Part shown: piece by piece, positions 2,583 to 30,097 of the stretch
How the letters are laid out: every line of letters starts with the position of its first letter
How positions within the stretch are numbered: the first letter of the stretch is position 1
Virus record (IMG/VR): IMGVR_UViG_3300017751_000110
Span: 1-31,746 of that record
DNA from: a virus
DNA length: 31,746 bases
Direction: 5' to 3' (one strand)
The notes under the pieces: generated by a model
Databases searched by the model: none
What the model saw: only the letters and a program-made list of their open reading frames with translations
Told to the model about the DNA's origin: nothing
Program-made: the position numbers and the translations under genes

Positions 2583-3110
2583 ATGGCTTATAATTACTCT
2601 CAACCAATTAGCACTGTTACTGACTCGACTCCAGTTTCTACTCCGAGTACGAGTACGAATACGAATATTACTAATGATGGTTATGCTAATGAAAAAACTC
2701 CAGCATCAGTAGGACATTCTCAAACTGATGCTGAGCGCTACAGCGATTTAAATTTACAAATGATAGTACATCCACAAAAACAAGATATTATACCGTTGAT
2801 TGGTGAACAGGCTGTAAAAAATGCAATAAGAACTTTGTTACTAACAAATTTTATGGAAAGGCCTTTTCAACCTAACTTAGGTGCAAATTTAAGAAGTTTA
2901 TTATTTGAACCTAATGATGCTGTAACTCGCCTAGCTTTAAAAGATACGATTTTTAATGTATTATCATTGCATGAACCAAGGATAGAAAATATAAATGTTG
3001 TAATCGAATCTACAACAAATGAAAATGGCTATAGAGTTACAATAATTTTTAGTATAAAGGAAAATGATTCGATTCAAGAAGTTGAAATTAATTTAAGAAG
3101 ACTAAGGTAA
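2583..3110 (+). CDS. gp25: Baseplate wedge protein gp25
   Basis: A 175-residue protein with the gp25/lysozyme-like family hallmarks. These are YSDLNL (residues 53-58), which aligns with the T4 gp25 N-terminus; AVKNAIRTLL and ERPFQPNLG (about 77-100); LFEPNDAVTR; and the EPR motif Glu131-Pro132-Arg133 inside LHEPRIE. The EPR segment is conserved in gp25/TssE proteins, where it helps build the wedge core with gp6, gp7 and gp53. The first ~50 residues are a Ser/Thr/Asn-rich extension (TPVSTPSTSTNTNITN) absent from T4 gp25, which is 132 residues. ATG 2583 is the only Met before YSDLN, but it has no Shine-Dalgarno sequence because the late promoter occupies that space. The gene is 6 bases upstream of gene 6. 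Confidence 0.95.
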   Translation: MAYNYSQPISTVTDSTPVSTPSTSTNTNITNDGYANEKTPASVGHSQTDAERYSDLNLQMIVHPQKQDIIPLIGEQAVKNAIRTLLLTNFMERPFQPNLGANLRSLLFEPNDAVTRLALKDTIFNVLSLHEPRIENINVVIESTTNENGYRVTIIFSIKENDSIQEVEINLRRLR

Positions 3111-3116
3111 AGAGAT

Positions 3117-4991
3117 ATGGCTACCAATTTAAATGTTACAGAACTAGATTTTGATCAGATAAAAGATAATCTAAAAAACTTTATGAAATCACAATCAAAA
3201 TTTAAAGATTATGATTTTGATGGTTCTGGTCTAAGCGTTCTATTAGACATACTTGCATATAATACTCATTATAATGCTATGTTGGCACATTTTGCATTAA
3301 ACGAAGCCTTTCTTGATTCTGCGCAAATACGTGGCAACGTTGTATCACGTGCAGGTTTGCTTGGATACGTACCTCGATCAGTTTTAGCGCCAAGAGCTGT
3401 TATAAAATTAGTAGTTGATGTTACTAATAGCGATTCTATTAATTTACCAACAACGCTTGTATTAGAAAGAGGAACAAAATTTACTACTATTGTTGATGGT
3501 GTATCATATACTTTTTCTTCATTAGAATCTCAAACTGCAATTAGAGATGATAGAATAATAGATGAGGTAACTTATAAAACATTTACATATGAGGCCATTC
3601 CAATAGCAGAAGGTACGATTCGTTCATTATCATATCGAGTCGATAACGACATTGAAAACCAAAAATTTCAAATATCAGATGCTGATGCTGACACATCAGC
3701 GTTAAGAGTACGAGTTCAAAATAACCAACAATCAGAAAGTTTTGATAGTTATCAATTATTTTCTAGTTTACAAGATGTTGTATCAGATACACTTGTGTAT
3801 CATCTACAAGAAAATTCAAGTGGCTTCTATCAAATATTTTTTGGTGATGGTATTATTGGTAAAAAACCAGTTAATGATAATATTGTAACTCTTGATTATC
3901 TTGTCACACAAGGTATTGCAGCAAATGGTGCTAATAGTTTTGACTTAGTTACAGCGTTCCCAACATTGAATGAACCAGAAATTGCAGTTACAACTGTTTC
4001 TGCTGCAAATGGTGGATCCGAATCAGAAACAACCGAGTCAATTCGCTTTAATGCTCCTATTACTTTCCAAGCTCAAGATCGAGCCGTAACATCTCAAGAT
4101 TATACAGCAATTATTCAGAAGAATTTCGCAAACATTGAGTCAATATCTACATGGGGTGGTGAAGATAATCTTATTCCGGATTTTGGTAAAGCTTACATTA
4201 GTATTAAGCCACTTATTGGTGATGCATTAACACAAAACGAAAAAGAAGAAGTTAAATCAATTATAAAAACAAAGAATATTGTATCAATTACACCTGAGCT
4301 AGTTGATCCTGAATTCACGAATGTTGAAATTGATGTGATTTTTAAATATAACCCATCACTTACAAGTCGATCAAATTCAGCAGTCGAAGCACTTGTTAAA
4401 GATGTTATATTAGATTATAACTTTAATCAACTAAATCGGTTTGATGGTGTATTTAGACATTCTGAATTACTAGGATTAGTTGATAATGCTGATCCAGCAA
4501 TTACAAGTTCTACTATCAGACCATTCTTAACAAAAACGATTATTCCTTCAGTAAGTAGAGTTGAAAACAATTTTAATCTGACTTTTGTTGGTAAATTTTA
4601 TCTTACTGATGGTAACGATTTTAATATTACGAGTACTCCTTTTAAGTTTAATGGCGTAGATCATTTCTTTGGAGACATTAAAATAGCAGATTCTGAAGAT
4701 AGACAGATTGTAACATATAAAATTGTAAATAACGAAAATATAATTGTAAATGGAAATATTGGACAAATTTTTGCCGAAACAGGTATTGTTACATTAAATA
4801 ATTTTTCTCCTGATGATACAACTCCAATTACTATTACTTTACTTCCAGATTCATTTGATTTAGCACCAAAACGAAATCAAATTATTAACATAGATTCTTC
4901 TAGAATTAATGCTAAGGGATCAATAGATACTATTGCATATTCGGGATCAGCTGGTACTATTGATTACAGTACTACTAGTAGAATGAGATAA
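3117..4991 (+). CDS. gp6: Baseplate wedge protein gp6
   Basis: A 624-residue protein close to the length of T4 gp6 (660). The N-terminal 60 residues are characteristic: LDFDQIKDNLKNFMKSQ, then FDGSGLSVLLDILAYNTHYN and a helix leading to SRAGLLGYVPRS. The middle holds a baseplate-J-like fold: FFGDGIIGKKP, then NGGSESETTESIRFNAP and DRAVTSQDYTAII at about residues 235-330. gp6 forms the dimeric ring core of the wedge that joins wedges to each other and undergoes the hexagon-to-star change on contraction. The C-terminal ~120 residues look like beta-structure. A purine-rich AAGGTAAAGAG precedes the ATG. The gene follows gene 25 by 6 bases and precedes the next wedge gene by 4, the usual 25-6-7 order. 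Confidence 0.95.
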   Translation: MATNLNVTELDFDQIKDNLKNFMKSQSKFKDYDFDGSGLSVLLDILAYNTHYNAMLAHFALNEAFLDSAQIRGNVVSRAGLLGYVPRSVLAPRAVIKLVVDVTNSDSINLPTTLVLERGTKFTTIVDGVSYTFSSLESQTAIRDDRIIDEVTYKTFTYEAIPIAEGTIRSLSYRVDNDIENQKFQISDADADTSALRVRVQNNQQSESFDSYQLFSSLQDVVSDTLVYHLQENSSGFYQIFFGDGIIGKKPVNDNIVTLDYLVTQGIAANGANSFDLVTAFPTLNEPEIAVTTVSAANGGSESETTESIRFNAPITFQAQDRAVTSQDYTAIIQKNFANIESISTWGGEDNLIPDFGKAYISIKPLIGDALTQNEKEEVKSIIKTKNIVSITPELVDPEFTNVEIDVIFKYNPSLTSRSNSAVEALVKDVILDYNFNQLNRFDGVFRHSELLGLVDNADPAITSSTIRPFLTKTIIPSVSRVENNFNLTFVGKFYLTDGNDFNITSTPFKFNGVDHFFGDIKIADSEDRQIVTYKIVNNENIIVNGNIGQIFAETGIVTLNNFSPDDTTPITITLLPDSFDLAPKRNQIINIDSSRINAKGSIDTIAYSGSAGTIDYSTTSRMR

Positions 4992-4995
4992 TTAT

Positions 4996-7900
4996 ATGGC
5001 TCAACAAAGCTTAAAAAACCTAGATTCATTTTCAAGAGGATATGTAGAAGACGTTAGGTCTAACATCGACTTTGATACTACACGCCGTTCAGAAACTGTT
5101 AATAAATACGAAGCAGCTACACAAATTGAATTGGTGTATGTTCCAATTCTTGTAAGCGATAGTAGTATTCCAGCTGAAATATTAAATCCTTTATTAGGTA
5201 AAGTAGTAAGTGGTAAAGGAATTGTAGGGGCTCCTCGAGTTACAGGTGTTTCGGCAGATAGATTAATAATTACAATAGATCAGCCTCAATCATTTGGTGG
5301 TACTGTTGAAAATACTATTCTTACATTTAGTGATACTAATTCTGGTATTGATCAATACGAATTGGTTGGATCTGCTAAAGCAAGATCTAAAGAAGATATA
5401 CGTATAGAAGACTTAGTACCAGAAGAGTTATTAGAATATGCGACTGAATCGAGTACTGGTGGTATACGTGATTTTCTAGAAAGTTATTATAAGTATATGA
5501 ACTTGGAAGAGTTTACATATAAAGCTGAAGAAACTTTTGAAGATGTTGTTATCGATAACACAGCAATATTTAGAATAAACGAACCAAATAAGTTTTTCCA
5601 AAGAGGATTAGTTCTCGCCGCGCAGTTTTTTGACGAAGACGGTGTTCCTTTACTCGTTGGTGATGAGGACGGATCTCCAGATTTAGTAGGTGATAATATA
5701 TTACTAGATGATACCGAGACTTTGAACGTCGGATCTAGTTATCAAATTATAAGTTTAGGTAATGGTACTTCTTTAAATATTGCAGCTGGAATTAATAATA
5801 TATCTGGAAGAGAAGAAGACGAATATTTTGTCGGAGATATTTTTGTTGCATCTAATAATGGAACTGGATACGATGCTACTTTAGGATCAGAACGAGTAAA
5901 TGTAAGACTTCTAGTATATCCAGAAGTTGTCGATGATATCTTTACTGGAAATGTTAGTATTAGTAATTCAAATAAATTACCTGGACGGGTTGCAGACTCT
6001 CCTGAACCAACTGGTCGTACAGTAAATATATATCGATTATCTCCAAGATTAAATAAACGAAAAATTACAATGAAAACTTTCGTTTATAATTATATTGATT
6101 CTGGCCCTTCTTATCGTTTAAATACAATAGAAGATTCTTTAAATTTAATGGAAGCTCATGAAGAGTTTCTAGATTTAATGCAAAAAGAAATTGCACCAGC
6201 TTTAGATAAAACTTCACCAGTCGATAAAAGAGCAGTATACGAAAAAATAATTGACTTCTATAAAATGCGTGGTTCATTTGAATCGATTGAAACCTTCTTT
6301 AAACTATTATATAATGAGCAAGAAATACAAGTTAATTATCCTTGGGATAATACATTAAAACCTTCTTCCGGTGTATATGATCCAAAATCTGCAATTGGTG
6401 CTAACTATAGTTTATCAGAATTAATTGAATCGAGCGATAACGCAAATAATGATGCATTCGGTAGATCTGTTTCAGTAAGTGGAGACACATTTGTTGCTTC
6501 ATCACCGAGAGATGATAATGGAATATATCTGGATTCTGGAGCAGTATATACATATGAAACAGTAGATAAAGGTAAAACTTTTGTACAAAAGCAAAAAATT
6601 GTAAGCGCAACAAGTGATTCTGATTTAAATTTTGCTCTTGATAAGTTTGGCACATGTGTATCATTAAGTGGTGATATATTAGCTATATCGGCTCCGGGTG
6701 ACGAAACAACTCATGGTGTTGCAGATACTGGTTCTGTTGAAATATGGAATCGCACAATTGATATTAACGGTAATAGCGTTTGGTCTTTTAATAGTAAGAT
6801 TATACCAGCTGCTAGTACTGGTATACACTTTGCTCATGGAAATGAATCGGTTTCATTAGACGGTGAATATCTTGCAATAGGTCATGTTGGTCGTACGCAC
6901 TCAAATGCATCTATACCCGAAGGATCTGTTAACATTTATAAGCAAGTGGGTTCAACTTGGCAATTAAAACAAGAACTAATATGTCCTTCAGAATTGTATA
7001 CGGGATCTGCATCAAATAATGGGTTTGGAGAAACAGTTGTTGTAAAAGGAGATTACTTAGTTGTTTCCTTTCAAAATTATTCCACAGCAAGTATAACAAA
7101 AACTGGCCGAGTAGTCATATATAAGAAAAATGCAATAAGTCAATTGTATGAAAAAGAAACAATTTTAGCTCCTACTAATGATGTACCCGGTCAAATTTTT
7201 GGTTATGCATTAGATATATCAGTAGTGGAAGGTAGTAGCCCAAGGATTGCATTAACGAGTCGTGATAATCCATATCATACAGTTTATATTTTTGAAAGAA
7301 GTGACAGCACACAAACCGGCCGTGCTGTATGGCATCCAATTAATTCTATTCCAAGCTATGTGGATCCAGCAATACGAGATAATACGAACTACGGTATAAT
7401 TGTAAGAATATTTGATGATCAACTAGTTATAGGCGAACAAGGCTATGACGATGTTAATATAATTGATAATGGTAAAATATATCACTATGAATTTGATCAA
7501 GATTTAGAAGTTTGGAATCCAAAGCTTCAATATAGAGGCGATCCCGTTATACAACATTCAAATTATGGTTTTGCTATCGATATATCAGATGAATCTGATA
7601 AAAATTATTTGGTGGTTGGTGCACCTGGTAAACCAGATGGTACAGGTAATCAAAAAGGATATGTTCGAACATATAATAGACCAGCATTAATTGGTAATTA
7701 TACTACTAATGCTGGATTTTTATCAGAAAAGAATATTAAAGTACATGATTCGGATTTTTATCAGAAATTTTCATATGTCGTAAAAGTTGCTCGCAATATA
7801 TCACAGTGGAGTGAGCCATTTAGTAAATTGGTTCATCCAGCTGGATTTAAATATTTTGGTGAAGTATTACTTATTATTCAGGCTGTACGTAATGTATTAG

Positions 7901-9561
7901 GAGATACCCAATCCGATACAACAGTAGGAATTGGACAAGATACACAAGTATATGAAAATTCATATAGCGCATCACCAGCATTTCGTAAAACATTGTCTTC
8001 TATGCCCGGTGTGCAACCAGGATATATTGGTATTGAAGATATAGGTTTACTTGTTGAAGCAATTGCTTCTACCTTCGGTATTGTTGGTATTGCTAGACCG
8101 AATAAAGACGCTAAATTATCAATGAAGCCTAGTTCAACTAATGGTGGCTTAATAGATATATCTATTTCAGAGGCAGGATTTGGTTATCCTTCGGCGCCAG
8201 CTGTAACGTTATCTGGTGCCGGATCTGGTGCGGCCGCAACAGCTGTTGTAAATACTAAGGGCGAAGTAACAAAAATAAGGATATTTGGTGGTCATAATTC
8301 ATTTAATATTGGTGAAATTGGAATCGACTCTGGTCGAACTGCAAACACATATACCAATATTACAACTGGTGGAAGTCGATCATCTGCCAATGGTGCTAGC
8401 GGTGTAGTGACAATTGCAGTAGGCTCAGACAAAAGTATTTTAAGTATTACTTCGACAACAACTGGTACTAATTATGAAGTCGGAGAACGTATTACAATAC
8501 CAGCCGGTCAGCTAGGGTCAGGCAGTGCAGGATTTTCCTTTACTGTTGCTAGTTGTGGTAGTGGATATATATTAGGATCTACTATAGTAAATATCCAAAC
8601 TCTTGCTCAAGAGTGTGCTGATGATGGCTTATCAGGAAACCAAGAAAGAGTATTTAGCAAAATTGGTCTACTGAACTCTACAACGTTAGGTCTTGATTTA
8701 GTAGGATTAAATAAGAAAACATACACACAAACACCTAGTATTACTATTTCTGCACCTGATGCTCGTGAGTCGAATGGAGAACCATTATCAACTAATGTGC
8801 AAGCGACAGCAACGCTTACAAGAAATCCTATAACTGGAAGAATTACAGGGTATACGGTTACTAACCCTGGTAGTGGATATTTAAATGATGCAACTATATT
8901 AGTATCAAATATTGAAGAAAAACGTGCACCAGATTATATGCACAAAAAGATTATTCCAGCTAATCATGATAAAGAAATTCAATCAATATTACCAGAAAAT
9001 GATTATTTCGAACGTAAAAATCGTATGCCAGTTAATGAATATAATATACATGTTAGTGCTAAGAGTGATGGCAGTGGCAATGCTTTTTATATTAATACTA
9101 CTGAAGCTGCATCGTTAACATTAATTCGTGGAGCCACATATAGATTTATACAAAGTGATGTCAGTAATACTAATCATCCATTCAGACTTTCTTTATTTGA
9201 GAATGGAATACATACTGCAGGTGCTGAAGAATATACAGTTAATGTAGTCTATGTTGGAGTTCCAGGGCAGGAAGGTGCTTATACTGAAATTAAAATTTCT
9301 CCAGAAGCACCAGATACATTATACTATTATTGTACAAATCACAATGGTATGGGATCTTCTTTAAATATATTTGGCCGAAACATGGCTAAAGAAAATCCTT
9401 CATTCTTAGGACAAAAGAAATTCCAAGGGAATTATCAAATACACAACTTCGATAATATTACAATCGAAGATATTTACAACTCAACAGCTGACGGAACTAG
9501 TATAAATAATATAAACGCACAAGCTAGTTTATCTGACGCAATTACGAATAAAACACTATAG
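4996..9561 (+). CDS. Large baseplate wedge protein in the gp7 position, with FG-GAP propeller insertion and cupredoxin-like domain
   Basis: A 1521-residue protein between gp6 and gp8, where T4 has gp7 (1032 residues). Segments I associate with marine T4-like wedge proteins are the N-terminus (LKNLDSFSRGYVEDVRSN), a helical block at about 374-452 (EEFLDLMQKEIAPALDK, KMRGSFESIETFFKLLYN) and a second block at about 912-956 (DSDFYQKFSYVVKVARN, FSKLVHPAGFKYFGE). Between the two blocks, residues ~462-905 form seven FG-GAP-like units of about 60 residues. After ~1040 come Gly-Ser-rich beta modules with GFGYPSAP and GSGYLNDAT. Residues ~1349-1459 are cupredoxin-like with His1394, Cys1446, His1449 and Met1452. 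The 5' end follows gp6 by 4 bases. Assignment as the gp7 equivalent rests on position and the two conserved blocks, and is moderately sure. Confidence 0.85.
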   Translation: MAQQSLKNLDSFSRGYVEDVRSNIDFDTTRRSETVNKYEAATQIELVYVPILVSDSSIPAEILNPLLGKVVSGKGIVGAPRVTGVSADRLIITIDQPQSFGGTVENTILTFSDTNSGIDQYELVGSAKARSKEDIRIEDLVPEELLEYATESSTGGIRDFLESYYKYMNLEEFTYKAEETFEDVVIDNTAIFRINEPNKFFQRGLVLAAQFFDEDGVPLLVGDEDGSPDLVGDNILLDDTETLNVGSSYQIISLGNGTSLNIAAGINNISGREEDEYFVGDIFVASNNGTGYDATLGSERVNVRLLVYPEVVDDIFTGNVSISNSNKLPGRVADSPEPTGRTVNIYRLSPRLNKRKITMKTFVYNYIDSGPSYRLNTIEDSLNLMEAHEEFLDLMQKEIAPALDKTSPVDKRAVYEKIIDFYKMRGSFESIETFFKLLYNEQEIQVNYPWDNTLKPSSGVYDPKSAIGANYSLSELIESSDNANNDAFGRSVSVSGDTFVASSPRDDNGIYLDSGAVYTYETVDKGKTFVQKQKIVSATSDSDLNFALDKFGTCVSLSGDILAISAPGDETTHGVADTGSVEIWNRTIDINGNSVWSFNSKIIPAASTGIHFAHGNESVSLDGEYLAIGHVGRTHSNASIPEGSVNIYKQVGSTWQLKQELICPSELYTGSASNNGFGETVVVKGDYLVVSFQNYSTASITKTGRVVIYKKNAISQLYEKETILAPTNDVPGQIFGYALDISVVEGSSPRIALTSRDNPYHTVYIFERSDSTQTGRAVWHPINSIPSYVDPAIRDNTNYGIIVRIFDDQLVIGEQGYDDVNIIDNGKIYHYEFDQDLEVWNPKLQYRGDPVIQHSNYGFAIDISDESDKNYLVVGAPGKPDGTGNQKGYVRTYNRPALIGNYTTNAGFLSEKNIKVHDSDFYQKFSYVVKVARNISQWSEPFSKLVHPAGFKYFGEVLLIIQAVRNVLGDTQSDTTVGIGQDTQVYENSYSASPAFRKTLSSMPGVQPGYIGIEDIGLLVEAIASTFGIVGIARPNKDAKLSMKPSSTNGGLIDISISEAGFGYPSAPAVTLSGAGSGAAATAVVNTKGEVTKIRIFGGHNSFNIGEIGIDSGRTANTYTNITTGGSRSSANGASGVVTIAVGSDKSILSITSTTTGTNYEVGERITIPAGQLGSGSAGFSFTVASCGSGYILGSTIVNIQTLAQECADDGLSGNQERVFSKIGLLNSTTLGLDLVGLNKKTYTQTPSITISAPDARESNGEPLSTNVQATATLTRNPITGRITGYTVTNPGSGYLNDATILVSNIEEKRAPDYMHKKIIPANHDKEIQSILPENDYFERKNRMPVNEYNIHVSAKSDGSGNAFYINTTEAASLTLIRGATYRFIQSDVSNTNHPFRLSLFENGIHTAGAEEYTVNVVYVGVPGQEGAYTEIKISPEAPDTLYYYCTNHNGMGSSLNIFGRNMAKENPSFLGQKKFQGNYQIHNFDNITIEDIYNSTADGTSINNINAQASLSDAITNKTL
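6380..7710 (+). other. Seven-unit FG-GAP-like beta-propeller segment within the wedge protein
   Basis: Residues ~462-905 hold seven related units beginning near 487 (AFGRSVSVSGDTFVASSP), 549 (KFGTCVSLSGDILAISAP), 609 (HFAHGNESVSLDGEYLAI), 674 (GFGETVVVKGDYLVVSF), 733 (IFGYALDISVVEGSSPRI), 797 (NYGIIVRIFDDQLVIGEQ) and 855 (NYGFAIDISDESDKNYLV). Each ends in a strand with an aromatic such as GAVYTYE, GSVEIWN or GSVNIYK. Seven units of ~60 residues match one closed seven-bladed propeller of the integrin-alpha/FG-GAP type. The acidic calcium loop is not clear in every unit. The function may be adhesion or packing on the baseplate surface; that is inference. Confidence 0.75.
9040..9372 (+). other. 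Cupredoxin-like domain near the C-terminus of the wedge protein
   Basis: Residues ~1349-1459 run YNIHVSAKSDGSGNAFYI, LTLIRGATYRFIQSDVSN, TNHPFRLSLFENG, then YYYCTNHNGMGSSLNIFG. This is the order of a plastocyanin-type fold: a beta sandwich with an early His (1394) and a late Cys-x2-His-x3-Met cluster (1446, 1449, 1452). All four ligands of a type-1 copper site are present. Similar segments occur, as I recall, in other marine phage virion proteins. Metal binding in this protein is not demonstrated. Confidence 0.65.
9501..9508 (+). promoter_or_regulatory. Possible late promoter upstream of gene 8
   Basis: An exact TATAAATA lies inside the last 60 bases of the wedge gene, about 57 bases upstream of the gp8 start after allowing for initiation near 9514. 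The distance suits a promoter that would raise gp8 and downstream fibre expression. It encodes part of the wedge protein C-terminus, so it could be a coding coincidence; exact octamers occur by chance in DNA this A+T-rich. Confidence 0.35.
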
Positions 9562-9570
9562 GAAAAAATC

Positions 9571-11343
9571 ATGGCTGCAATTATATCAGGAAATTTTAGA
9601 TCGCTTAATGCTGCATCTTTCGTAGAAGAAATACAAGGCGATAGAAGTAATATTTATGTTGGATTAGGCAAATCTAGTCCATGGGGAGGTACTACTACTG
9701 CTAATACAAGCGATGAAGATGCACCTACTCCAACAGACACAATAGATGCCATTAATGAAGCCCGTCAGCAGATGATAGGTATGAAATTGGTAACTGATAA
9801 TGACATATCACATGTTGTACCAAGATATGATTGGTTTCCAGGCGCTCAATTTGTTCCGTGGGATTCAACCGATCCCGCTATTTATGACAAAGCGTTTTAT
9901 TGTTTAACTTCAGACTTTAAAGTTTATAAGTGTATTTTTGCCCCTAATGCAGGCGGTGTATCTGATGTACCAACTCATATCGATGAAAACATTACTGCAA
10001 CAACCGATGGCTATCATTGGAAATATATGTATACTATTCTTGCAGCTGATTCAGAAAAATTCTTAACGAACTCTTATATGCCAGTTAAAACTTTAACTGA
10101 ATCAACTTTAGGTACAGTAGCTGCTGGTGCTTCCAATTCAACAACATTTACAATCGATAATGAAAATCCTAGGATTACTGTTGGGCAAGTAATTACCGGT
10201 ACTCAAGGAACTGCTGGTTCAAGTCCATCAATAAATGCTGATACGACTGTAATATCTGTTAGTGGTAAAACAGTTACAACATCATCTGTTGTGACAGTTT
10301 ACGATGGAAATGTCATAACATTTGGAGGTTTCTTAGCAACTGATCCAAGATTTGCTCAACAAAGTTCACAGGCAGCCTCTCGAGCATTAAGCACAGCTGG
10401 TGGTATTGAAAGATTAAAACTTATAAGTGGCGGTAGTGGTTATCCTAATGATGGTCAAGGTGTAACAATTAGTGTCACTGGTGATGCACCGGCCGGTTCA
10501 GAGTGTGTCACACCAGGTAATGTACTGTCAAGCTATATTGAAGGTAATTCATTTATAAGTGATATTATTATTGGCGGTAGCTTAGCAACTGATCAGGCTG
10601 ATGATGTTGGAGCTGACTTTAGTGTTGCTCAAACTACTATTAGTCATAGCGGAACAGGTACTGGGGCTGAATATATTCCAATCGTTTCGCCTCGAGGCCG
10701 ACCTGGATTTAGTTCTGTTGTCGCTGGAGGTGGCCATGGTTGTGATCCTGTATTTGAACTTGGTGGTTTTTATGTAGGAATTAATGTACAAATAAGCGGA
10801 TCAGCTGATAGTGAAATTGCTAATAGCCAAGACTTTAGACAAATTTCACTTATACGTAATCCTCTTATTAGCGGCAATATTCCTACTAGCCCAGCAAGTG
10901 CAATAAATACATTAAAATATATTTCATATGATACAGTACATACTAATAACGGCGGAGCTAGTGGTAATACTAATTATGCTGCAAAGGGTATTAGTTTAGC
11001 ATTAGCTGTTCAAGCTAATGATCATGTTATTGAAACCACATCTGGTTTTAAAGGATATATAGTTAATGTAGACACAACAAATAAAAGAATTTATTATTTC
11101 CAAAATGATTTAACCGGTTATGTGAAACCATTAGCTACTGATGATATGGTAATTAAAACTGGTGGACAGGAGCAAGATGCTTTTGCTATTACTGCTGGGG
11201 CAGGTGCTGATGATATTGCAGTTAATAATCCTGAGTTAAACTTTAATAGTGGATCTGGTGAAATGCTTTTCTTAGAAAATAGAGATCCAATTCAAAGAAG
11301 TACATCTCAAATTGAAGATGTTAAATTAATTATAGAATTTTAA
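9571..11343 (+). CDS. gp8: Baseplate wedge protein gp8
   Basis: A 590-residue protein carrying the gp8 pattern: an N-terminus with NFRSLNAASFVEEI, NIYVGLGKSSPWGG at about 27-40, then VPRYDWFPGAQFVPWDS and FYCLTSDFKVYKCIFAP. DGYHWKYMYTI (His149-Trp150) and the block ending SYMPVKTL follow. T4 gp8 (334 residues) forms a dimer in the wedge that contacts gp10, gp7 and gp6. The extra length comes from inserted modules. One at ~184-253 (ITVGQVITGTQG, then TVISVSGKTVTTSS) resembles segments in the two large downstream proteins. One near 285 is a GGSGYPNDGQG unit. The last ~35 residues (GEMLFLENRDPIQRS, then DVKLIIEF) are gp8-like. AGGAAA sits 8 bases before the ATG, overlapping the upstream stop. 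Confidence 0.88.
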   Translation: MAAIISGNFRSLNAASFVEEIQGDRSNIYVGLGKSSPWGGTTTANTSDEDAPTPTDTIDAINEARQQMIGMKLVTDNDISHVVPRYDWFPGAQFVPWDSTDPAIYDKAFYCLTSDFKVYKCIFAPNAGGVSDVPTHIDENITATTDGYHWKYMYTILAADSEKFLTNSYMPVKTLTESTLGTVAAGASNSTTFTIDNENPRITVGQVITGTQGTAGSSPSINADTTVISVSGKTVTTSSVVTVYDGNVITFGGFLATDPRFAQQSSQAASRALSTAGGIERLKLISGGSGYPNDGQGVTISVTGDAPAGSECVTPGNVLSSYIEGNSFISDIIIGGSLATDQADDVGADFSVAQTTISHSGTGTGAEYIPIVSPRGRPGFSSVVAGGGHGCDPVFELGGFYVGINVQISGSADSEIANSQDFRQISLIRNPLISGNIPTSPASAINTLKYISYDTVHTNNGGASGNTNYAAKGISLALAVQANDHVIETTSGFKGYIVNVDTTNKRIYYFQNDLTGYVKPLATDDMVIKTGGQEQDAFAITAGAGADDIAVNNPELNFNSGSGEMLFLENRDPIQRSTSQIEDVKLIIEF

Positions 11344-28546: not shown

Positions 28547-29026
28547 ATGATTAGAGGTAAAATAGTGAATTATAATTATTTTGTAAAAGTTGACAATAAC
28601 CGTGTAGAGTTTTTACAATCAAACGATCCGGTTGAAATAGATGGTTTTTATATATCAATTAAAGATGAAGAAGTATTAGTACCGAAATATGCTAGGTTTG
28701 TAAAGTATATTGAATGTTGTATATTTGACGATAAAAACGAAATAGAGATTGATACTACTAAGGTATTAGCAATAAAACTTGCGTCATTAGAGCATGATGT
28801 TAATGACGCAATAGATAAGTTAAGAAGTTTAGTTAAAGAAGCAGTTGCTCTGGATAAAACCGATGTTGCAAAAGAAATTGCTGAAATGATTAGATCGATC
28901 GATAAATTTTTAGAAGAATCTGATTTTTCTAATGTAACGAATATAGATGATATTGAAAATATTGTATGTACTGAATTGATGGTTAATTATGAGAGTTATT
29001 TCTTTGAGAAAATATACGACCTATAA
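28547..29026 (+). CDS. Hypothetical protein, first gene of the accessory cluster
   Basis: A protein of 159 residues that I do not recognise. The first ~65 residues look like a compact beta domain (YFVKVDNNRVEFLQSNDPVE, then GFYISIKDEEVLVPKYARF). The rest is helical and acidic (LASLEHDVNDAIDKLRSLV, then AKEIAEMIRSIDKFLEES) and ends YFFEKIYDL. There is no signal peptide or membrane helix. The start is uncertain. ATG 28547 has only A+T-rich sequence upstream, whereas the in-frame GTG 28565 has GAGG seven bases before it and would give 153 residues beginning at VNYNYFVKVD. The gene lies 32 bases after the giant fibre and its 3' end overlaps the next gene by 38 bases. Its function is unknown. Confidence 0.8.
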   Translation: MIRGKIVNYNYFVKVDNNRVEFLQSNDPVEIDGFYISIKDEEVLVPKYARFVKYIECCIFDDKNEIEIDTTKVLAIKLASLEHDVNDAIDKLRSLVKEAVALDKTDVAKEIAEMIRSIDKFLEESDFSNVTNIDDIENIVCTELMVNYESYFFEKIYDL

Positions 29027-29540
29027 TATACATGGTAAAGGCGTTCCAGAACCGTTATACCCAGATGAATTGCACGATTTGCTTAAGCAATATGCAAATA
29101 AAAAGACATATGATAATAGCAAACAAATTGTTAAAAATGGTAAACATAAGGCAAATGCTTCACATGCAATAAACGGAAAAGTTTCTGAAATAAAAGAAAC
29201 TACTATTATTTCAATATTACCTGCATTAAAGAAATCATTCCCTAATTTAAATTTTAGATTATCTGGTCATTTTATTTATGGACCTAGTGATTTTATGGGT
29301 GAGCATACGAATAAAGACGATGCAACTGAGGTTATGTATTTAACATACGCTACTGGTAAATCTAAGTTTTCATATCGATTTTCACAAGATGAACCGTTTA
29401 TAGATACGTATGATAATATTGATGGACTTACAATAAGAGCATTTACTGCAAGTGCAAGAGAACCTTACACTTTTCATAAAGTAGATTGTGAATCCGGATA
29501 TAGAGTATCCATTGGATTAAGATATATCAATATAGGTTAA
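28989..29540 (+). CDS. 2OG-Fe(II) oxygenase-like (double-stranded beta-helix) protein, copy 1
   Basis: A 183-residue protein paralogous to its downstream neighbour. The second half has the layout of a double-stranded beta-helix dioxygenase: GHFIYGPSDFMGEHTN, with His106 and Asn108 where the usual HxD/E sits; then YLTYATGKSKFSYRFSQ and TYDNIDGLTIRAF; then a distal His163 in YTFHKV; and Arg172 nine residues later in GYRVSIGLRY. The His-to-His and His-to-Arg spacings suit 2-oxoglutarate enzymes, but the acidic ligand is Asn. The N-terminal helical part (PLYPDELHDLLKQYANKK) may bind a partner. ATG 28989 is used here; in-frame TTG 29004 has GAGAG eight bases upstream and gives an N-terminus matching the paralogue in length. 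The substrate is unknown, and loss of iron binding is possible. Confidence 0.78.
   Translation: MRVISLRKYTTYNIHGKGVPEPLYPDELHDLLKQYANKKTYDNSKQIVKNGKHKANASHAINGKVSEIKETTIISILPALKKSFPNLNFRLSGHFIYGPSDFMGEHTNKDDATEVMYLTYATGKSKFSYRFSQDEPFIDTYDNIDGLTIRAFTASAREPYTFHKVDCESGYRVSIGLRYINIG
29337..29389 (+). repeat. 53-base direct repeat, copy in first oxygenase-like gene
   Basis: This stretch is identical base for base to 29897-29949, a spacing of exactly 560 bases. It encodes the YLTYATGKSKFSYRFSQ core of both paralogues. The rest of the genes differ widely at DNA level apart from a second identical run at 29462-29494 (matching 30022-30054). Confidence 0.9.
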
Positions 29541-29551
29541 GTAATTAAATT

Positions 29552-30097
29552 ATGAGTTATGATCACATAGAATATAGTATTAATGGTAAACAAATTCCAC
29601 CACCGTTATATCCTGATGAATTAAAAAATATACTTAAAAAATGGGCAAATAAAAAATCATACGATAATGATTGCTATGCTGGTTCTAAGCTTGGCAATGA
29701 TTTGAATCCTTATGCAGATCATCCTGCTAATGCTAAGCTTCATTTCTTACGAGATGAAAAGATAATTAATATAATAGTACCTGCACTAAAACGTTCATAC
29801 CCCAACTTAAACTTTAAAGCTACAGGGCATTTTATTTATGGGCCTGGAGATTTTATGGATGAACATACAAACGTAAGTAATCCATCTAATGTACTTTATT
29901 TAACATACGCTACTGGTAAATCTAAGTTTTCATATCGATTTTCACAAGACGATGACTTAATTGAAACATATGATAATGTTAATGGACTAACTGTGAGAAC
30001 ATTTACTTTAACTAGTTCTCCACCTTACACTTTTCATAAAGTAGATTGTGAATCTGGGTATAGAGTATCCATTGGATTAAGATATGTCGAGTTATAG
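29552..30097 (+). CDS. 2OG-Fe(II) oxygenase-like (double-stranded beta-helix) protein, copy 2
   Basis: A 181-residue paralogue of the preceding gene, alignable over its length. Shared blocks are PPLYPDELKNILKKWANKK, VPALKRSYPNLNFKATGHF, GDFMDEHTN, LYLTYATGKSKFSYRFSQ, NGLTVRTFTLTS and YTFHKVDCESGYRVSIGLRY. Candidate active-site residues are His105, Asn107 (in place of Asp/Glu), His162 and Arg171. The middle region (DCYAGSKLGNDLNPYADH) differs most and is longer than in copy 1, hinting at a different partner or substrate. It starts 11 bases after copy 1 with only a weak ribosome binding site, and its last 14 bases overlap the next gene. The fold call is fairly sure by pattern; enzymatic activity is uncertain because of the HxN change in both copies. 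Confidence 0.78.
   Translation: MSYDHIEYSINGKQIPPPLYPDELKNILKKWANKKSYDNDCYAGSKLGNDLNPYADHPANAKLHFLRDEKIINIIVPALKRSYPNLNFKATGHFIYGPGDFMDEHTNVSNPSNVLYLTYATGKSKFSYRFSQDDDLIETYDNVNGLTVRTFTLTSSPPYTFHKVDCESGYRVSIGLRYVEL
29897..29949 (+). repeat. 53-base direct repeat, copy in second oxygenase-like gene
   Basis: The partner of 29337-29389, identical over 53 bases at a constant 560-base offset. The preservation of third codon positions here, against many differences elsewhere in the pair, points to recent exchange (gene conversion) or a very recent partial duplication rather than protein constraint alone. Confidence 0.9.

Follow-up and report, generated by a model that had tools for sequence, protein, structure and literature searches.

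A gp7-like baseplate wedge protein and its cupredoxin domain

The window, the whole 31,746-nt stretch of viral DNA that we analyzed, contains a series of baseplate wedge genes. One of them encodes a 1521-residue protein that the original prediction had labeled a baseplate protein, and this is borne out on several counts. Genes encoding gp25-like and gp6-like proteins lie upstream and a gp8-like gene lies downstream, the protein matches Pfam PF23786 (Baseplate_wedge) over residues 911-956 with 30.4 bits (cut-off 27), and the PHROG match for ORF 4996-9561 is PHROG_2885, baseplate wedge. The gene order gp25-gp6-gp7-gp8, together with the wedge profile match, supports its assignment as a T4-like gp7 wedge protein. 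The four residues proposed as copper ligands, His1394, Cys1446, His1449, and Met1452, proved correct in identity and position, in frame with this ORF. The features relevant here, all on the + strand, are as follows.

2583..3110, +, gp25-like baseplate wedge protein (Pfam GPW_gp25, 7e-14)
3117..4991, +, gp6-like baseplate wedge protein (PHROG_219, 3e-157; Pfam Gp6-like_1st)
4996..9561, +, gp7-like baseplate wedge protein, 1521 aa (ORF; carries the cupredoxin domain)
9022..9381, +, cupredoxin domain, residues ~1343-1462 (AF2 pLDDT 91.3; type-1 copper proteins as the 50 best PDB matches)
9175..9177, +, His1394, N-terminal copper ligand in NHPF, equivalent to plastocyanin H37 (profile alignment)
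9331..9333, +, Cys1446, thiolate ligand, equivalent to plastocyanin C84 (profile alignment)
9340..9342, +, His1449, C-terminal ligand, equivalent to plastocyanin H87 (profile alignment)
9349..9351, +, Met1452, axial ligand, equivalent to plastocyanin M92 (profile alignment)
9571..11343, +, gp8-like baseplate wedge protein (Pfam Phage-Gp8, 1.8e-18)

The sequence context of His1394 is VSNTNHPFRLSL, and the other three ligands are all found within TLYYYCTNHNGMGSS. The order His, Cys, His, Met is as originally proposed, but the spacing needs correction, since Met1452 follows His1449 at x2 and not at x3. The loop is thus Cys-x2-His-x2-Met (C TN H NG M), which is the loop length of amicyanin. Given the composition of the gp7-like protein, chance alone would produce a C..H.(2-4)M motif 0.0015 times. 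Cys1446 is the sole Cys in the domain, and there are only five in the entire protein. The 31.7-kb viral contig as a whole encodes a single copy of the domain.

The same gp7-like protein also carries FG-GAP_2 repeats, from 6427-6555 (residues 478-520) onward, in two stretches (E 3.5e-21) that correspond to an integrin-alpha-like β-propeller. Elsewhere in the window, 28989-29540 and 29552-30097 are tandem paralogous genes, 60% identical, for which no match was found in Pfam or PHROG; an H...TFHKV...R.S pattern, read by eye, suggests a 2OG-Fe(II) oxygenase-like fold. As for the presence of gp7-type wedge proteins in particles, purified cyanophage virions contain them, as evidenced by S-CREM2 ORF122, a "baseplate wedge protein, intermediate" detected with 91 unique peptides (PMC10665884).

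Predicted fold and kinship with type-1 copper proteins

Structure prediction, which had been proposed as a check, returned a cupredoxin fold. The AF2 model of the domain, built on 30 aligned viral relatives (A1), has a pLDDT of 91.3 and nine strands, in keeping with a Greek-key β-sandwich of about eight strands. In this model, His55 (His1394) lies just ahead of strand 57-60, Cys107 (Cys1446) ends strand 102-107, His110 and Met113 are in the next loop, and the following strand starts at 114. This predicted placement of the four ligands on strands and loops is the cupredoxin arrangement. When the model was compared to the PDB using Foldseek, the 50 best matches were all type-1 copper proteins (best E 7e-5). 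The first is 2ux6, a pseudoazurin with an engineered amicyanin loop, and the best matches include pseudoazurin, rusticyanin, CotA, nitrite reductase, AcoP, and plastocyanin. A second AF2 model (pLDDT 91.8), seeded by the domain of a bacterial exoprotein from SAR116 (L134), agrees with the first. Pseudoazurin again ranks first, and engineered short-loop azurins are matched as well, whose loops CTPHPFM and CAAHAAM share the Cys-x2-His-x2-Met length with the gp7-like domain. Because the Foldseek TM-scores are only ~0.5, with an rmsd of ~5 Å, this is a divergent cupredoxin family. Among BFVD matches, the Pithovirus/Marseillevirus "β-sandwich" proteins A0A481Z6J5, A0A481Z7Q7, and A0A481YVH3 show fold similarity with a TM of ~0.65-0.7.

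A link to known cupredoxins is also found by profile comparison. A profile of 45 diverse phage copies was aligned by hhalign with plastocyanin, amicyanin, and pseudoazurin (of the three, the amicyanin sequence was checked against 1aac), giving a probability of 93.4% over 72 columns, with all four ligands in register with plastocyanin H37, C84, H87, and M92. Controls were close to zero, with 40 column shuffles at or below 0.8% and the reversed profile at 0.7%, while the close-relative profile A1 alone reached 27%. When the ligands were masked in the cupredoxins alone, the probability was 35% and the register was essentially unchanged; masking on both sides reduced it to 4%, which shows that a large part of the sequence-homology signal comes from the ligand motif. 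Family databases place the domain below their thresholds. The gp7-like domain has no match to Pfam Copper-bind (PF00127) or Cupredoxin_1 (PF13473), and its best relative in this respect, a P-SSM2 copy, reaches 21.7 bits against Cupredoxin_1 (E 2e-4, cut-off 27) and 21.0 bits against Copper-bind (cut-off 21.2). A Pfam/NCBIfam search with the domain gave no family above cut-off, only weak At5g54830-like, CBM_4_9, and L31 matches, and searching PDB sequences with either the domain or profile A1 gave chance matches only.

The weak CBM_4_9 matches (best 2.7e-4, in 17 of 30 members) could be taken to mean that the domain is some other β-sandwich, Ig-like or carbohydrate-binding, whose motif arose by coincidence. 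We consider this very improbable, since type-1 copper proteins ranked first for two independent models, and the profile alignment, for which shuffled controls stay close to zero, has every ligand in register.

Comparison with characterized proteins shows where the phage domain stands within this fold. With amicyanin, pseudoazurin, and plastocyanin it has in common the fold and the ligand set in the order His...Cys-x2-His-xn-Met, as well as the amicyanin loop length x2 and aromatic residues before Cys. It differs from these three in having Pro after the first His (HPF/HPL) where they have Asn, in a long insert that separates the strand of the His from that of the Cys, and in falling below the Pfam cut-offs. 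The type-1 domains of multicopper oxidases (CotA and others) and nitrite reductase are among its best fold matches, and the type-1 His of laccases also occurs in an HPF motif. However, multicopper oxidases have the HxH of the trinuclear center (HPFHLH), whereas the phage domain is a single domain lacking those histidines (HPFRLS).

Distribution of the domain and retention of its ligands

The domain is not peculiar to this baseplate but occurs commonly, as a module, in the tails of marine phages. By tblastn, 159 of 50,697 phage records have it, almost all of them marine and from phages of Synechococcus, Prochlorococcus, Pelagibacter, and Methylophilales, and at least 590 stretches in IMG/VR encode it. 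The carriers include gp7, gp9-type connectors, T7-like tail fibers (L138), other fibers, and "structural" proteins. A single cyanophage genome can have as many as five or six matches, and some proteins have tandem copies. In bacteria, a SAR116 contig (L134:3947-5059) encodes a secreted-type exoprotein with an N-terminal cupredoxin domain, an RTX-like repeat, and DUF5648, flanked on one side by tuf, nusG, and an rRNA methyltransferase (read from sequence), and in Bacteroidetes contigs the domain is inside very long open frames. Marine phage tail fibers, gp7, gp9 connectors, and certain bacterial exoproteins share it as a mobile module.

An earlier count, in which the ligands were 100% conserved in 168-170 copies, was discounted because the retrieval patterns contained YYYCTNH. 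It was replaced by a survey in which a profile with the four ligand columns masked as X (A3) was searched against 21 whole phage records. This ligand-blind search yielded 63 places and 62 distinct pieces, from which two fragments and one doubtful frame were left out, leaving 59 usable copies; L253, an apparent copy with a stop in its frame, was excluded. In two of these, L226 (CETHGATM) and L236 (CTVHGIGM), the aligner stopped early, and they were scored by hand as ligand-bearing. A Cys-His-Met/Gln loop is present in 40 of the 59 copies (one with Gln for Met), and all 40 also have the first His. The other 19 lack Cys, His, and Met together, five of them retaining His at the first position, and no copy has a partial loop set (Fisher p = 9e-10 for co-retention, a value that ignores kinship among copies). 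Judged by eye, the 19 correspond to about eight orthologous groups. Since the 21 records were picked for having one copy resembling the gp7-like domain, the ligand-bearing fraction is no census; this choice has no bearing on the all-or-none pattern.

Even with the ligands masked during retrieval, the ligand columns rank among the most conserved in the set, and the full ligand set is still present in many copies with only 25-33% identity to the gp7-like domain. Loop length varies between x2 and x3 among copies, with Met kept; L226 and L236 (MED4-213 and P-HM2) have a loop one residue longer, Cys-x2-His-x3-Met. One copy (L252, cyanophage P-RSM6 87500-88300) has a natural axial Met-to-Gln change in CHHHTGQ, with His, Cys, and His kept. 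Gln is the axial residue of stellacyanins. A disulfide as the reason for Cys retention is ruled out, because exactly one Cys is found in 104 of 107 ligand-bearing copies.

The original prediction took the presence of all four ligands as a sign of selection on metal binding, and named homologues that routinely lose Cys or His but keep the fold as evidence against it. Such homologues do exist, to the number of 19 of 59, but Cys, His, and Met are lost jointly and never in part. Since the ligands are kept or lost as a set, selection on a metal site in this domain family is well supported. It could nevertheless be that the cupredoxin fold is reused without copper, its residues being kept for packing or by inertia with no metal bound in nature. 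The 19 copies without Cys, His, and Met, which presumably still fold, are in favor of this, and, as about a third of the surveyed copies are without ligands, a scaffold role needs no metal. However, packing is not expected to give an all-or-none pattern, ligands that persist at 25-33% identity vanish together, and a lone reactive Cys is retained with no disulfide partner. We therefore regard copper-free reuse as unlikely.

A proposed metal-riveted module on marine phage tails

On the computed fold, ligand register, and coupled ligand retention, we infer that the domain binds a metal and that copper is that metal, although Zn, Ni, or Hg can likewise occupy type-1 sites in vitro. The reading that we consider probable is that residues ~1343-1462 of the gp7-like protein form a cupredoxin with an intact type-1 copper site, working as a metal-riveted surface module. 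Since virion proteins would fold in a copper-poor cytosol, the site would probably be filled after lysis, from dissolved seawater copper. Copper would then fasten the C-terminal loop with Cys, His, and Met to the strand bearing the first His, without the help of disulfides. Because copies occur, in places as tandems, in gp7, gp9-like connectors, tail fibers, and bacterial secreted proteins alike, the domain may serve mainly as a surface-exposed, metal-riveted β-sandwich for particle stability and/or surface attachment.

Other functions for a bound metal have to be weighed. Type-1 sites are redox active in all characterized families, which, with the suggestive position in gp7, a wedge protein, would be compatible with a redox or copper sensor, or an electron-transfer site, that triggers a baseplate change on contact with reductants of the host surface. 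One would expect a sensor or electron carrier to keep to one location and one partner. This domain, by contrast, is shuffled, at times in tandem, among unrelated fibers, connectors, and bacterial exoproteins with neither a constant position nor a constant partner, and the 31,746-nt window shows no evident gene for a redox partner. A sensor is therefore improbable in our view, and a copper-riveted surface or adhesion module is favored over it. It is also unlikely that the domain acts as a soluble electron carrier. Unlike amicyanin, pseudoazurin, and plastocyanin, the phage domain is no soluble periplasmic electron carrier but one part of a 1521-aa virion protein. Cyanophages encode plastocyanin (petE) as an auxiliary metabolic gene, and this too is a cupredoxin in a marine phage genome, but it is produced during infection as a free electron carrier of the host type, unlike the virion structural domain of gp7.

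The tail-borne copper, or another metal in the site, might also be recognized by a host metal-uptake receptor, in the manner of a "Trojan horse." The domain is indeed found in tail fibers of Pelagibacter, Methylophilales, and picocyanobacterial phages, and a parallel proposal exists for iron in the HxH tail fibers of marine phages, iron-binding HxH fibers being those of T4 gp37 and Alteromonas phage R22Y (PMC11705849). Like the phage domain, these fibers have conserved metal-coordinating residues in a marine phage tail protein, but they bind octahedral iron at trimeric fiber tips, whereas the type-1 site is inside one cupredoxin domain of unrelated fold. Considering that gp7 and gp9-type connectors are not receptor-binding tips, and that the domain also occurs in bacterial exoproteins (L134), we find such recognition distinctly unlikely as the main explanation.

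In the open-access literature that we searched, we found no paper on a cupredoxin or blue copper domain of this kind in a phage baseplate, tail fiber, virion, or cyanophage. The known metals of virions are, to our knowledge, mainly iron and zinc, in tail tips. The coupled retention of ligands across ocean phage tails suggests that these virions carry a metal, and, given the all-or-none pattern, one recombinant domain would be enough to put the metal question to a direct test. A broader proposal, possible but put forward tentatively, is that marine phage virions with myo- and podovirus-like tails are copper proteins, with a large uncurated cupredoxin family loaded from seawater after lysis and serving infectivity or host contact.

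A type-1 copper site would give the domain a name where current annotation says "hypothetical," "tail fiber," or "structural." If virions do carry copper, phage particles would gain a copper inventory and possibly a copper sensitivity, and their blue color and EPR would offer a direct spectroscopic handle on them. The infectivity of abundant ocean phages would be tied to copper chemistry by such a site.
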